From Blautia sp. (GTDB taxonomy: Bacteria > Bacillota > Clostridia > Lachnospirales > Lachnospiraceae), in the NCBI GenBank assembly GCA_017515945.1, contig JAFWDX010000181.1:1-14526 (forward strand): 14,526 nt of DNA, written 5' to 3'. A program made the translations under genes and the position numbers. This document shows positions 6,014-14,110 of the stretch, piece after piece; position 1 is the stretch's first letter; the number at the start of each line of letters is the position of its first letter. The notes under the pieces are model-generated. The model saw only the letters and a list, made by a program, of their open reading frames with translations. It made no database searches and was not told where the DNA came from.

Positions 6014-6212
6014 ACTTATCTCCGAGATTCGTAATACTCCCGTCCGGCTCCTTTATATCTATGCTGTCCAGCTGAGCCCGCAGATTCATCCGGATGGTGG
6101 CGATATACTCTCTGCGCAGCTGCGCCTGCTCCTCTTTCTCCTCCGGGGTCAGACCTACACTCTTTGCCTTGTGAGCCAGGGTGTTGATCCGGTCGATCAT
6201 AATATTATCCAT
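5991..6212 (-). CDS. YnzC/DUF896 family small protein
   Basis: 73 residues with the family signature: IDRINTLAHKAKSVGLT, then EEKEEQAQLRREYI, and a C-terminal DPxG-like EPDGSITNLG. Members are small helical-hairpin cytoplasmic proteins of Firmicutes whose molecular function is not established. An AAGGAG site lies 12 nt before the ATG, which is long. The next in-frame ATG (residue 5) has no better site. It is the first gene of an operon with the folate cyclo-ligase. Confidence 0.9.
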   Translation of the reverse strand: MDNIMIDRINTLAHKAKSVGLTPEEKEEQAQLRREYIATIRMNLRAQLDSIDIKEPDGSITNLGDKYGDKTKH

Positions 6213-6271
6213 ACTGTATAATTACTCCTTAAAAATCTCATAACATTCCACTTTGAATATACCAGAGCATC

Positions 6272-6300
6272 ATAATAAATGAGTAACTGTTCAGTCACAA
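6272..6300 (-). promoter_or_regulatory. Candidate promoter of the DUF896/folate cyclo-ligase operon
   Basis: On the minus strand TTGTGA (6300-6295) and TATTAT (6277-6272) are separated by 17 bp, about 60 bp before the start codon. The -35 hexamer lies inside the 34-bp palindromic element at 6283-6316, so the repeat would supply half of this promoter. Confidence 0.5.
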
Positions 6301-6316
6301 GCTCCTTCACAGTTAC
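6283..6316 (-). repeat. 34-bp palindromic element, copy D (intergenic)
   Basis: Read on the minus strand it begins GTAACTGT and ends ACAGTTAC (8-bp perfect inverted ends) around an 18-nt centre. It differs from copy C (13340-13373) at a single position. It is the left end of the composite palindrome 6283-6448. Translated in the frame used by the genic copies it would read VTVKELVTEQL. Confidence 0.85.
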
Positions 6317-6448
6317 AAGGCCAGGCGCAGGCTCCTTTCGTCGTATTGGAAGTGCGCCTCCCAAGGGACGACTTCGGTGTGGCCTTGGCTGTTGATCTTT
6401 TGTTCCACGCACCCCGCAGTAAATGCGAGGTGCTGACTGAACAGTTAC
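6283..6448. repeat. Composite palindromic element, about 166 bp
   Basis: GTAACTGTTCAGTC at 6283-6296 is perfectly inverted at 6435-6448. Inside are nested pairs: AAGGCCA 6317-6323 with 6380-6386, GGCGCA 6324-6329 with 6353-6358, and a hairpin formed by GCACC plus CGCA (6409-6418) with TGCG plus GGTGC (6424-6433). The layout resembles a small mobile or structured element, with the 34-bp element forming its left end. A minus-strand reading frame crossing it shows no protein-like features. Confidence 0.75.
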
Positions 6449-6635
6449 ATAAATGATACATTACTCATCAATAAACAATATATTTTGACGTTTATGACTG
6501 TTGCACCGGGGAGTCTGCAAGTCAAATGGGCCAGCCAGAAGGTATAACCGAAAGTGCTATTGCATAACCGGACGGTCTGCAGGCACTGCCCCACATTTCG
6601 TTGCATGAGTGAAGAGGAATCTCTCCCCGTTATTC
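6449..6635. other. Gene-free stretch without clear structure
   Basis: No gene seen. An A/T-rich part (6449-6500) contains a TTGACG hexamer without a good -10 partner. Further right, two weakly similar blocks of the form TTGCA...GTCTGCA occur at about 6504-6519 and 6559-6578. Nothing else can be supported. Confidence 0.5.
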
Positions 6636-6866
6636 ACACAAATGGGCCGTCCCCTTGTGCTCACATATAATAATACAAAAAGACCGTCCCCCTGTGTTCA
6701 GCAAGGCTTCTATTCCCTTCACGACGGGCTGCGCCGGATGTATCCCCCGGCGTGACCATCGGCAAAAAAATGCACGAGACCAGGACGCGTGGCTCCCTTG
6801 GACGCTGGTGATGAGTCAAGGGACCTGTCCCCCTGACTCACACAAAAGGACCGTCCCCTTGTGTTC
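6636..6866. repeat. Three copies of a CCGTCCCC direct repeat plus a hairpin
   Basis: Units at 6636-6662, 6674-6699 and 6840-6866 share the form ACAAAnnGnCCGTCCCCnTGTGnTC. The first and third have complementary ends, ACACAA with TTGTG(T). Next to the third, GAGTCAAGGGAC (6813-6824) pairs with GTCCCCCTGACTC (6827-6839). Motifs of this kind recur in clostridial intergenic regions; a link to REP-type transposases is possible but no transposase gene is present here. Confidence 0.75.
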
Positions 6867-11594: not shown

Positions 11595-12323
11595 ATGATC
11601 AACATGTTGATTTCAGACACGGACAAAGAGGAAAAAAAGGTGATCGAAGCCTCCTGCAGGGAATGCACAGCCTTTAATTCCGAAGAAAAGCTGTGTATCT
11701 TTTACGTTGGAGATCCGGAGAAGCCGCAGCGGGATCTGGAAAAGGAGGACCTTTTTCATCTGGCGATCGTGGATGTCTGCGCAGGCGGAGGGCTCGCGCT
11801 GGCGGAAAAGCTCAGGGAGCTGTTTCCGCAGCTGCATCTTATGGTCATCGCGGAGGCACGCATTTCTCCGCTTGCGTATGTGAATCCCCGGATCCGTGCG
11901 ACCGGCCTTCTGCTGAGGCCCTTTGCGGATGAAGTGGTCCGCCGTACCTGCGCAGAATTTCTGACCGGTTCGGGTGTGTTCAGACAGGATGAGGATGAAC
12001 ACAGCTTCCTGGTTCAGAATTCGGAAGGGAAGACCCTGATTCCTTACCGGAAAATATATTATTTTGAGGCGCGGGAAAAAAAGATTTTTGTCAGGACAAA
12101 AAGCCGGGAATACGGGATCTATGAAGTCCTTGATCATCTGATGCAGGAGCTCCCTCCGGAATTCCTGCGCTGCCACAGAGGGTTTATCATCAACACGGAC
12201 ATGTTTGAAAGCGTCCGTTTTTCGGAGAATGCCATTTATCTGAATGGAGGGATCAGCGTGCCTCTGTCCAGAAGCTATAAAGCAGACGTCAAGGAGTATA
12301 TGAATGGAAGACAGAATAAGTGA
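11595..12323 (+). CDS. LytTR-type response regulator with degenerate receiver, inside the T7SS operon
   Basis: 242 residues. Residues 1-125 have the outline of a receiver: acidic N-terminal residues in LISDTDKEE, a candidate phospho-acceptor D60 in LAIVDVCAGG, and LLLRPF at 105-110 where an active receiver has Lys-Pro. The usual Ser/Thr after strand 4 is not apparent (MVIAEA, 83-88). Residues about 136-237 form a LytTR DNA-binding domain with YRKIYYFEA (151-159) and RCHRGFIINTDMF (192-204). The ATG at 11595, 7 nt after the essC-like stop, is preferred over an in-frame ATG at 11463 inside essC, although its ribosome site is weak; an ATG at 11604 is an alternative. No histidine kinase is in the window. 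It probably controls this operon or its substrates, perhaps without phosphorylation. Confidence 0.85.
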   Translation: MINMLISDTDKEEKKVIEASCRECTAFNSEEKLCIFYVGDPEKPQRDLEKEDLFHLAIVDVCAGGGLALAEKLRELFPQLHLMVIAEARISPLAYVNPRIRATGLLLRPFADEVVRRTCAEFLTGSGVFRQDEDEHSFLVQNSEGKTLIPYRKIYYFEAREKKIFVRTKSREYGIYEVLDHLMQELPPEFLRCHRGFIINTDMFESVRFSENAIYLNGGISVPLSRSYKADVKEYMNGRQNK

Positions 12324-13059
12324 AACGCCGATAACTATGGAAGAGCCTGCGTCTGAACAGCTGCAGACACTGACATATGCTCCGGTCATCCTCACGGGTC
12401 ATGAGCTGCTCATGCTGGCGGCCGCCGGCGGGCTGAAGGGCTTCCGATGCCTGCTGCGGGAAGAACTGTCTCTGCCGGATCCCGAACAGAGTATTTATAC
12501 CTGGATGGGGATGAAGCAGGAGGAGATCCTGGACGAAAAGGAAACGGTCAGAGAGCCTTATGCGTCACTGATCCGCGAGCTGAAAAGCGCGTCCTCGCTG
12601 CTGCTGCTTTATACCCGTTACAGTACCGACGCCAGACTCTGCGTCTATACCGGTGAAAACCGGCTGGTGCTGGCGGAGCCGTCTGAGCGGGATCAGAATT
12701 CGATCCGGCTGTGGACTCAGTCCAGGCAGGCCTTTTGCAGGGAGATGCTGCAGGAGGGATGGCTGGCTGACCTGACATATGAGCATGAGACCACGGCTGT
12801 CCCCCGGATCCTTCTGCGCCGATGCGGCAGACTGCCTGTGCTGACCGGGGAGGGAAGAATTAGCAAAGAGGTTTTTCCTGATGTGGTACGGCTGGTGATG
12901 GAACGATATGACATGCAGACGGCATCTGTTACGGAGCGCCTGATGACCATAGAATATGATTATAAAGAATTCCTGCTCCACGGCACGGATGACCTGCGGG
13001 TATGCCCGGCACAAAGGGAACATGCGGCTGCGGTCCTCAGGGAATTCTGCCGGAGATGA
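12304..13059 (+). CDS. T7SS-associated protein of unknown function, possibly EspG/DUF5081-like
   Basis: 251 residues, mixed alpha/beta, with no signal peptide or membrane segment. It overlaps the LytTR gene by 20 bp and has AAGGAG 7 nt before its ATG, so the two are probably translationally coupled. ILTGHELLMLAAAGG (29-43), followed by a Leu-rich helix, a central SASSLLLLYTR stretch (about 94-104) and LVLAEPSERD (about 120-129), recall EspG-type chaperones of ESX systems, which bind secreted substrates in the cytoplasm. This match comes from pattern and context only and is weak. Residues 10-21 are encoded by copy A of the 34-bp palindromic element, in a probably flexible N-terminus before the folded part. 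Confidence 0.75.
   Translation: MEDRISETPITMEEPASEQLQTLTYAPVILTGHELLMLAAAGGLKGFRCLLREELSLPDPEQSIYTWMGMKQEEILDEKETVREPYASLIRELKSASSLLLLYTRYSTDARLCVYTGENRLVLAEPSERDQNSIRLWTQSRQAFCREMLQEGWLADLTYEHETTAVPRILLRRCGRLPVLTGEGRISKEVFPDVVRLVMERYDMQTASVTERLMTIEYDYKEFLLHGTDDLRVCPAQREHAAAVLREFCRR
12331..12364 (+). repeat. 34-bp palindromic element, copy A (inside a coding region)
   Basis: 26 of 34 bases match copy C (13340-13373), and the right end is ACAGCTGC as in copy B. The left end, ATAACTAT, no longer pairs well, so the palindrome is degraded. It is read in frame as ITMEEPASEQL followed by Q, in the N-terminal region of the EspG-like protein. Confidence 0.75.
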
Positions 13060-13061
13060 AT

Positions 13062-13310
13062 ATGATCATGGTGGACATATACGTCGCATCCGTGGATGCG
13101 GCATATGATTTTGAGATGGATGAAGAGATCACAACAGGAGAGGCCCTGCGGCAGATCACGGGTATCCTTGGCATGCTTTATCACAGCGAGGAGGATCCGG
13201 AGCGCTGTCCTTTCCTCCTTTGCCTGAGCAGGGACAGCCGTATTCTGCCGGACGGAGTTTCACTGCGGGAGGCAGGGGTGGAAAACGGAGACAGGCTGCT
13301 GCTTGTATGA
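13062..13310 (+). CDS. YukD/EsaB-type ubiquitin-like T7SS protein
   Basis: 82 residues with a ubiquitin-like layout: an initial strand VDIYVASVD, helix TTGEALRQITGILGML, and the ending GVSLREAGVENGDRLLLV, which is characteristic of YukD/EsaB proteins. These are small cytoplasmic T7SS components required for or regulating secretion; they are not conjugated like ubiquitin. Three ATGs cluster at 13056, 13062 and 13068. The one at 13062 is chosen because GGAG (13052-13055) lies 6 nt upstream. The upstream stop is 2 nt away, so coupling is expected. Confidence 0.88.
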   Translation: MIMVDIYVASVDAAYDFEMDEEITTGEALRQITGILGMLYHSEEDPERCPFLLCLSRDSRILPDGVSLREAGVENGDRLLLV

Positions 13311-13339
13311 AGAACGGGTGAGACCGATCAGAAAGGAAA

Positions 13340-13373
13340 GTAACTGTGAAAGAGCTTGTGACTGAACAGTTAC
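13340..13373 (+). repeat. 34-bp palindromic element, copy C (between operon genes)
   Basis: GTAACTGT and ACAGTTAC form perfect 8-bp inverted ends around an 18-nt centre. It fills much of the 76-bp gap between the YukD-like gene and the next gene, and its right edge directly abuts the Shine-Dalgarno AAAGGA (13374-13379). A stem here could affect processing or translation of the distal half of the operon. Confidence 0.85.
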
Positions 13374-13386
13374 AAAGGAAAAAAAG

Positions 13387-13794
13387 ATGCTTACACTGGA
13401 TATAACGGGGCTCAGAGAGGCTGCCGCGGATATGGACAGGCTGACCCGTTCCCTGAGATCGGAGGCAGAAAAGCTGTATCAGATGGATGCGGATCTGAAA
13501 CGATGTGCATATATGACGGACCAGAAAGTGCCGGCTGACGCGGAATGTATACATGAGCTTGAGGAACTGGGTTACAGACTGGGACAGCTCAGAAAAGTAC
13601 TGGAGCTTGTCTGTGATGAAGGCAGCCGCACACAGAAGGATGTACTGGACTGCGTCCGGGCGGCGGCTGACAGAGGGGCCGGTTACTGGACAGAAATGGA
13701 CGGGACGATGCTGGAGAATATGCGCCGCCGGATGGATCTGACGGGGATCGTGATCCGGGTCGAAGGAGAGGAAAATGGACGGAGTGCAGGTTGA
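13387..13794 (+). CDS. Small helical T7SS-locus protein, unknown function
   Basis: 135 residues, almost entirely helical with heptad-like leucine spacing: ITGLREAAADMDRLTRSLRS, then LEELGYRLGQLRKVLELVC. Two long helices joined by a turn (about 43-52) would suit a WXG100- or LXG-chaperone-like hairpin, but no W-x-G motif is present; the nearest is GYWTEMDG (98-105). AAAGGA lies 7 nt before the ATG. It overlaps the next gene by 20 bp. It may be a secreted partner or a chaperone; no family is assigned. Confidence 0.75.
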   Translation: MLTLDITGLREAAADMDRLTRSLRSEAEKLYQMDADLKRCAYMTDQKVPADAECIHELEELGYRLGQLRKVLELVCDEGSRTQKDVLDCVRAAADRGAGYWTEMDGTMLENMRRRMDLTGIVIRVEGEENGRSAG

Positions 13795-14110
13795 CCGGGA
13801 AAGGCTGAAGCTGGTCCGGCGTCATCTGGAGAAAAATATCTCGCAGATGCAGGAGATCCTCAAGGCCGCAGAAATGTCCGCGGATACAGATATGACTGAT
13901 GCAGGTGAAACCGAGGAAGGTCCCGCAGCTGTGAAGAAGCCTGTGGCCGAACAGCTGCAGACGGAAGGATCCCAGAAACAGATGATACATACCCTGCAGC
14001 AGGAGATGGAAGCACTTGCACGCCTGATGCAGGCCGCGGATGAGGTTCAGATACGATACGATCATTTTGAGGAAGATACGCTGGGCCTGATCGCGGAAAA
14101 GATAAGGTAA
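13775..14110 (+). CDS. Small helical T7SS-locus protein carrying a palindrome-derived linker
   Basis: 111 residues. The helix LKLVRRHLEKNISQMQEILKAA (11-32) and the helix MIHTLQQEMEALARLMQAA (70-88) flank an acidic linker (about 33-69). The end, YDHFEEDTLGLIAEKIR, is charged and helical. Copy B of the 34-bp palindrome encodes residues 51-62 (AAVKKPVAEQLQ) in the middle of the linker. AAGGAG is 6 nt before the ATG, inside the end of the preceding gene. A helical-hairpin partner or chaperone of T7SS substrates is likely from context; the family is not recognised. Confidence 0.75.
   Translation: MDGVQVDRERLKLVRRHLEKNISQMQEILKAAEMSADTDMTDAGETEEGPAAVKKPVAEQLQTEGSQKQMIHTLQQEMEALARLMQAADEVQIRYDHFEEDTLGLIAEKIR
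13925..13958 (+). repeat. 34-bp palindromic element, copy B (inside a coding region)
   Basis: GCAGCTGT and ACAGCTGC form perfect 8-bp inverted ends around an 18-nt centre. 25 of 34 bases match copy C. The arm differences (positions 2 and 4) are mirrored by changes at positions 33 and 31, so pairing is kept. It is read in the same frame as copy A. Confidence 0.85.

Follow-up and report, generated by a model that had tools for sequence, protein, structure and literature searches.

The 14,526-nt stretch of Blautia sp. DNA analysed here (contig JAFWDX010000181.1, hereafter the window) carries a T7SS-like operon encoding an FHA/FtsK protein, a LytTR regulator and a YukD-like protein just below the cut-off, and contains copies of a 34-bp palindrome, designated A to D (Table 1). 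A single 34-bp pattern matched only copies A, C and D in the window and had no match in any of 200 shuffles; as this pattern had been drafted to fit these three copies, the independent test is the genome-wide count given below. Of the four equivalent copies in the original prediction, A, C and D stood as good copies, and B turned out to be a decayed relative. Copy A, formerly taken for a free 34-mer, is the right end of a 166-bp element, and the GCAGCTGT/ACAGCTGC ends ascribed to the copy at 12331 are actually those of D (13925), A and C having GTAACTGT/ACAGTTAC. Copy C lies in the gap that separates the YukD-like ORF from the one after it. Copy B reads ATAACTAT...ACAGCTGC and forms no stable hairpin; it departs from the consensus at nine positions, and 200 block shuffles of the window came no nearer than 10 (in a single shuffle), so that it is probably a decayed copy of the 34-mer. 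An intact 8-bp duplication is absent both at D (1/8 identical) and at B (5/8), as compared by eye.

Table 1. Features of the 34-bp family in the window, and Blautia sp. genes with in-frame copies
Feature	Position	Strand	Remarks
166-bp long form, 15-bp identical inverted ends	6283..6448	-	perfect 8-bp duplication
Target-site duplication of the 166-bp element (ATAAATGA)	6275..6282	.	
Target-site duplication of the 166-bp element (ATAAATGA)	6449..6456	.	
Copy A, complete 34-mer, right end of the 166-bp element	6283..6316	-	
CTCGCATTTACTGCGAGG-like hairpin, left end of the 166-bp element	6412..6429	-	
Copy B, decayed 34-mer, in ORF 12304-13059	12331..12364	+	9 mismatches; arms Watson-Crick paired 4/8
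Target-site duplication of C, left (AAAGGAAA)	13332..13339	.	
Copy C, solo 34-bp element	13340..13373	+	0 mismatches to degenerate pattern; perfect 8-bp duplication
Target-site duplication of C, right (AAAGGAAA)	13374..13381	.	directly ahead of ORF starting 13387
Copy D, diverged 34-mer, in ORF 13775-14110	13925..13958	+	8 mismatches; arms paired 8/8
Orn/Lys/Arg decarboxylase gene			two in-frame copies, between two Pfam domains
RNase H gene			one in-frame copy, between Cauli_VI and RNase H domains
U32 peptidase gene			in-frame copy, after DUF3656 domain
Gene of a protein with a weak DUF2953 match			in-frame copy

An AGAC extension directly after the 34-mer was common to B (12331-12368) and D (13925-13962) and followed none of 172 other copies in the genome. 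Copy D is preceded by GGAAGGTCCC and followed by GGAAGGATCCC. B and D may be an older related pair.

The genome of this Blautia sp. (2.63 Mb in 518 contigs, 79% complete) contained 316 matches to the 34-mer with at most three mismatches (172 forward and 144 reverse in 2,625,352 bases), corresponding to a density of about one copy per 8 kb, and the reversed pattern used as control had none. Further copies in the genome, on which the original prediction had been made to depend, were thus found, but their spread over the whole genome removes the supposed tie of the element to the T7SS operon. Such an abundance of near-identical copies may be one reason why the assembly is fragmented. Flanks and lengths were analysed in a sample of 582,477 bases comprising the window and 80 contigs of the same genome, which, except for C266, had been chosen for listed 34-mer copies; the count of 316 refers to the whole genome and is unaffected by this choice.

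By their flanks, the 34-mers occur in two settings. Some are solo between identical 8-bp sequences, and others are the complete 34-mer that closes, on the right, a longer element starting on the left like GTAACTGTTCAGTCAGCACCTCGCATTTACTGCG. The elements have the general form GTAAC...GTTAC, and the sequence shared by the two ends is 8 bp in the 34-mer versus 15 bp in the long forms. Among 354 end pairs less than 600 bp apart in the sample, 79 had 8-bp flanks identical at seven or more positions, 52 of them perfectly, and near-identical flanks of other sizes were rare (two of 6 bp, two of 7 bp, five of 9 bp and none of 10 bp). The 79 elements were 34 bp (n = 22), 145 bp (17), 166 bp (16), 187 bp (8) and 144 bp (3) in length, with thirteen other lengths represented once each; among the 22 solos, 12 had perfect duplications. 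Adding the 8-bp duplication to the length gave a multiple of three for 70 of the 79 elements and for 11 of the 18 distinct lengths. The CTCGCATTTACTGCGAGG-like hairpin was matched 146 times in the sample with at most three mismatches, and its reversed control not at all. A 25-bp variant (GTAACTGTGAAGACTGAACAGTTAC) with a 7/8 duplication was observed at L149:4732-4756, near the end of the decarboxylase gene with two in-frame copies.

When the element was left out and its flanks were joined, six long elements gave matches to other, uninterrupted places in the sample. These paralogous places were either dispersed repeats, present as empty copies in up to 24 sequences, or copies of the family itself that had been hit by a nested insertion. 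Joined-flank matches were obtained for eight elements in all, of which two were excluded because they aligned through a neighbouring repeat copy (a solo at L041:6075 and a 187-bp element at L057:5193); no convincing empty site was found in the sample for any solo. With 8-bp target-site duplications, hundreds of copies and empty paralogous sites for the long forms, the proposal of a small mobile palindrome is supported. Some family elements were inserted into copies of a second dispersed repeat with a CGCGCGATCAAATAAATGGAAAAT core (e.g. L184:1-180 and L189:3000-3160), which had 35 matches in the sample at up to four mismatches, none with the reversed control and none in the window.

The arms of the palindrome had been supposed to covary, the paired structure being what is conserved. 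In 172 genome copies with up to six mismatches, 98 arm substitutions were counted, and 88 arm pairs were changed on one side, as against four changed on both sides with pairing and one on both sides without; 2.26 double changes would be expected if the arms varied independently. With substitutions mostly unpaired in this larger set, the outcome named beforehand as refuting the original prediction, conserved arm pairing as the rule was rejected; two transposon ends describe the palindrome better than a conserved hairpin does. Copy D, in which two arm changes are paired, lies with its eight mismatches outside this set of copies. As RNA, the 166-bp element folded with a z-score of -6.8, and none of 200 shuffles folded equally well. 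An Rfam RNA family was rejected as a candidate, no match being obtained in the window at the gathering threshold and none up to an E-value of 1 in the region 6200-6520.

The palindrome had also been described as belonging to no named family, yet in its ends and in the size of its duplication it agrees with the ISBst12 group of IS66, as seen in the IS66 elements compared below and as given in PMC12898284. That paper places ISDge4 in this group, reports an 8-bp repeat and the ends GTGACTACTCAGCA/GTAACTGCTCAGCA for it, and terms it copy-and-paste. ISBst12, ISGst1 and ISDge4 resemble the present elements in GTAAC-type ends (GTAACTATTCAG, GTAACTGCTCAG) and 8-bp duplications, and differ in being ∼1.4-1.9 kb long and carrying a transposase gene, whereas the elements described here are 34-187 bp long and carry none. 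The GTAACTGTTCAGTCA ends have the GTAA start and GTAACTRYTCAG type found in ISGst1, a Deinococcus IS66, ISDge4 and two IS66 elements of the same genus, L074 (genome G011) and L077 (G021); 8-bp duplications accompany this end type in the end pairs counted above and at 8 of 16 sites in genome G204 (see below).

L074 and L077 were found in a survey with PF03050 of 41 genus genomes including that of the Blautia sp., in which 30 loci from selected PF03050 matches were examined for ends; only these two had GTAACTATTCAG/GTAACAGTTCAG ends, given as GTAACTATTCAGAACC and GTAACAGTTCAGATA, together with perfect 8-bp duplications. The transposase of L077 is a single open frame of 515 aa, whose match to the NCBIfam IS66 model is below the cut-off (136.8 of 180 bits), and that of L074 is interrupted. 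Two of four plasmid IS66 regions (Geobacillus ISGst1 and Deinococcus) had the same end type and 8-bp duplications, and in the other two no ends were recognized by the script. The 79% complete Blautia sp. genome yielded no autonomous element with these ends: the PF03050 search revealed one IS66 gene, with no GTAAC-type end pair around it, and the L077 transposase as query gave a best E-value of 0.24. Judged by the ends alone, in a comparison of IS families that covered IS66, a transposase of the ISBst12 type would move the elements.

Outside this genome the exact 34-mer was found on one contig of the genome collection, from the uncultured Lachnospiraceae MAG RUG14852 (near-identical genomes are possibly absent from the collection). 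Four of 61 relatives, including the Blautia sp. genome itself, carried the 34-mer, the other carriers having one to three copies, and the 15-base end occurred in five of 397 family genomes, 363 times in the Blautia sp. genome and once or twice in the other four; its reversed control occurred once, in a different genome. A more general fused-end palindrome, defined as GTAACWRTTCAG, 0-24 bases and CTGAAYWGTTAC, was present in 40 of 397 family genomes and 37 of 334 genera, with at most 33 per genome and none for the reversed control; phylum-wide, it was found in two of 398 genomes, that of the Blautia sp. and G569. At 34 such loci, taken as one per genome plus a few more, 8-bp duplications of at least 7/8 identity were observed in 12, as compared with three, one, none and none at 6, 7, 9 and 10 bp, and 9 of 20 further stretches from six carriers had 8-bp duplications, four of these stretches (L208-L211) being counted also among the 16 sites in G204. 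The 12-base end alone occurred 9-448 times in ten carriers (control, 0-3). Elements of 136 bp in G317 and 137 bp in G278 follow the same plan, a GCATTTACTGC hairpin and a fused-end 30-mer forming their opposite ends, and GCATTTACTG hairpins, similar to the CTCGCATTTACTGCGAGG-like one, were seen in elements of G317, G278 and G339; another 30-mer of G317 (L088) has a perfect duplication. PF03050 was also searched in 12 carriers of fused-end palindromes; at the 18 new IS66 loci examined there, again from selected matches only, no paired GTAACWRTTCAG ends were found, L223 and L231 having one such end each. The 34-mer was on no viral contig of IMG/VR; fused-end palindromes were noted on two contigs of that collection, at L132:11554-11596 (duplication 1/8) and L133:11654-11683 (0/8).

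We consider the 34-mer to be the smallest form of a non-autonomous IS66/ISBst12 MITE family, its two ends fused and the interior nearly absent, a reading to which we assign a probability of roughly 0.7. A DDE transposase acting in trans would recognize GTAACTGTTCAG-type ends and insert the unit into AT-rich targets, duplicating 8 bp; the same ends are found on the longer, modular versions of 145, 166 and 187 bp, with hairpins inside and a complete 34-mer at the end. We infer that the 34-bp unit itself transposes; against this stand the lack of a clean empty site for a solo, the small numbers and the shortness of the donor, for which no mode of synapsis is known.

The solo 34-mers might instead be remnants, left together with their duplication when a 145-187-bp insertion suffered a deletion between the left-end and the internal GTAACTGT. 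Nearly precise excision of Tn10 is an analogue of such a deletion, which would yield the observed solos because the long forms start with the same 8 bases as their terminal complete 34-mer, and deletion-like lengths (61, 64, 85 and 100 bp) do exist. We nevertheless regard this origin as unlikely, since the duplication sequences of solos and long forms differ: the duplication starts with GA in 6 of 22 solos versus 30 of 50 long forms (P = 0.02) and ends with TC in six versus one in the left copy (P = 0.003) and in five versus two in the right copy (P = 0.025), and over all positions a permutation test gave P = 0.0008. This comparison is post hoc, the GA and TC contrasts having been noticed in the data before testing, and leaves out 7 of the 79 elements, whose length or ends fitted neither class. 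Such a difference fits a near-symmetric solo inserting either way and an asymmetric long form, and misfits deletion in place. Moreover, G204, a genome of another genus, has 16 sites with an isolated 28-mer that agrees in its first 18 bases with the right end of the IS66 element L077; duplications of at least 7/8 identity were found at eight of them (five perfect) and none of other lengths, and the flanks are mutually unlike save for one stretch common to two sites. The 16 sites are those scored among 39 first-look candidates, so that G204 has at least 16 copies and may hold more; a search for an empty site in 41 genomes including G204 gave elsewhere only partial matches away from the element. 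In G027, with nine GTAAC-type ends in all, both 34-mers are solo, one with a perfect duplication and the other with 6/8. The solo 34-mers are thus probably mobile units and not deleted remnants.

A REP- or RPE-like palindrome moved by other machinery, e.g. a RAYT-type tyrosine transposase, would share the size and palindromy of REPs (available text of PMC3733652) and the in-frame gene copies of RPEs (available text of PMC10969869), but is very improbable in view of the GTAA ends, the 8-bp duplications and the IS66 elements sharing the ends. An immobile host site under selection, such as a protein-binding palindrome or a terminator, would agree with the palindromy and with the bias away from long ORFs described below. 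As a full account it is refuted by 8-bp duplications at many sites, and the unlike flanks, the unpaired arm changes and the missing Rfam match also speak against it, leaving it scarcely credible; a regulatory role may have been acquired later. A junction of IS circles was rejected by reasoning only, as its ends would abut as TTAC-GTAA, the opposite of what is observed.

On this reading, the family is of a known kind, the IS66/ISBst12-type MITE, but unusually small, consisting of ends only and with in-frame copies that resemble RPEs. Like prokaryotic MITEs, which are presumably moved in trans, the elements are short, lack a transposase gene and have inverted ends and direct repeats. Prokaryotic MITEs are 50-500 bp long according to the available text of PMC10969869, a range that includes the 145-187-bp forms and lies above the 28- and 34-bp ones; decayed QMITE1 copies of down to 39 bp are described there, whereas 28-34 bp is here a recurrent standard length with duplications. 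The smallness is therefore striking and has a parallel; what is unusual is that 28-34 bp is a standard length and has duplications of its own. RPEs likewise are palindromic repeats lying in frame within unrelated genes, but are ∼150 bp long and frequent in genes (same text), in contrast to the IS66-type ends, 8-bp duplications and location mostly outside long ORFs found here, where in-frame insertion in genes concerns a minority, namely four genes of the genome and copies B and D. REP elements of the GTAG type are also 20-40-bp palindromes of high copy number but have GTAG at one end, in place of the GTAAC/GTTAC ends seen here, and are associated with tyrosine transposases, and the word 'duplication' is absent from the main text of PMC3733652.

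Whether the Lachnospiraceae host a class of ends-only transposons of 28-34 bp, made of two fused IS66/ISBst12 ends, which transpose as such, reach hundreds of copies, serve as ends of long forms and in part spread as in-frame peptides owing to their length plus the 8-bp duplication, appears to us evenly balanced. If true, such a DDE transposon, at 28-34 bp, would be shorter than MITEs usually are and would be hard to square with both ends being held in one synaptic complex; it would test how IS66-type transposases handle ends, and, as with RPEs, could give rise to new protein segments whose mobile origin is recognizable. Among the matches listed in the open-licence literature (titles and beginnings of abstracts), there was no report of IS66-type elements this small or of this repeat in Lachnospiraceae, and the string GTAACTGTTCAG appeared in seven papers with unrelated titles.

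Most insertions are outside long ORFs. An ORF of at least 200 codons was present at the restored site of 5 of 22 solos and 11 of 51 long forms, as compared with 82.5% of random points, which is an upper figure as random points include chance ORFs. Together, the 34-mer and its duplication add 42 bp, a whole number of codons (14), with one open sense frame (VTVKELVTEQL), so that an insertion within a gene can be tolerated. This sense-frame peptide is internal to the four Blautia sp. genes listed in Table 1. Within the T7SS-like operon, copies D and B lie in the same frame as the sense peptide in their ORFs, reading AAVKKPVAEQL and ITMEEPASEQL, respectively, and to judge from the open frames these and the other in-frame copies would be translated as parts of proteins. 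In total, 58 entries of ORFs spanning elements were obtained, 24 in sense frame 0, one in sense frame 1 and 33 antisense; as the element is open in several frames, most of these are probably chance ORFs or upstream extensions. The peptide was in none of 20 other loci aligned as RNase H orthologs, a weak result given that the linker is hypervariable, L281 seemingly represents the wrong ORF and L280 is blank at this position.

Other repeats were also observed in the window. Four tandem 30-bp units (GGCCGGTGCCGTGAGGGTTTTCTCTTA) at 1416-1745 lie beside a 31-bp inverted repeat (1517-1547/1715-1745), whose arm was found, within the 582-kb sample, in the window only. Short repeats at 6638-6866 and 1833-1894 consist of ACCGTCCCC-type units, with seven matches in the sample, three of them in the window, and a GGGGTCAGACCCCATT palindrome, with 13 matches, two of them in the window; neither control had any match.
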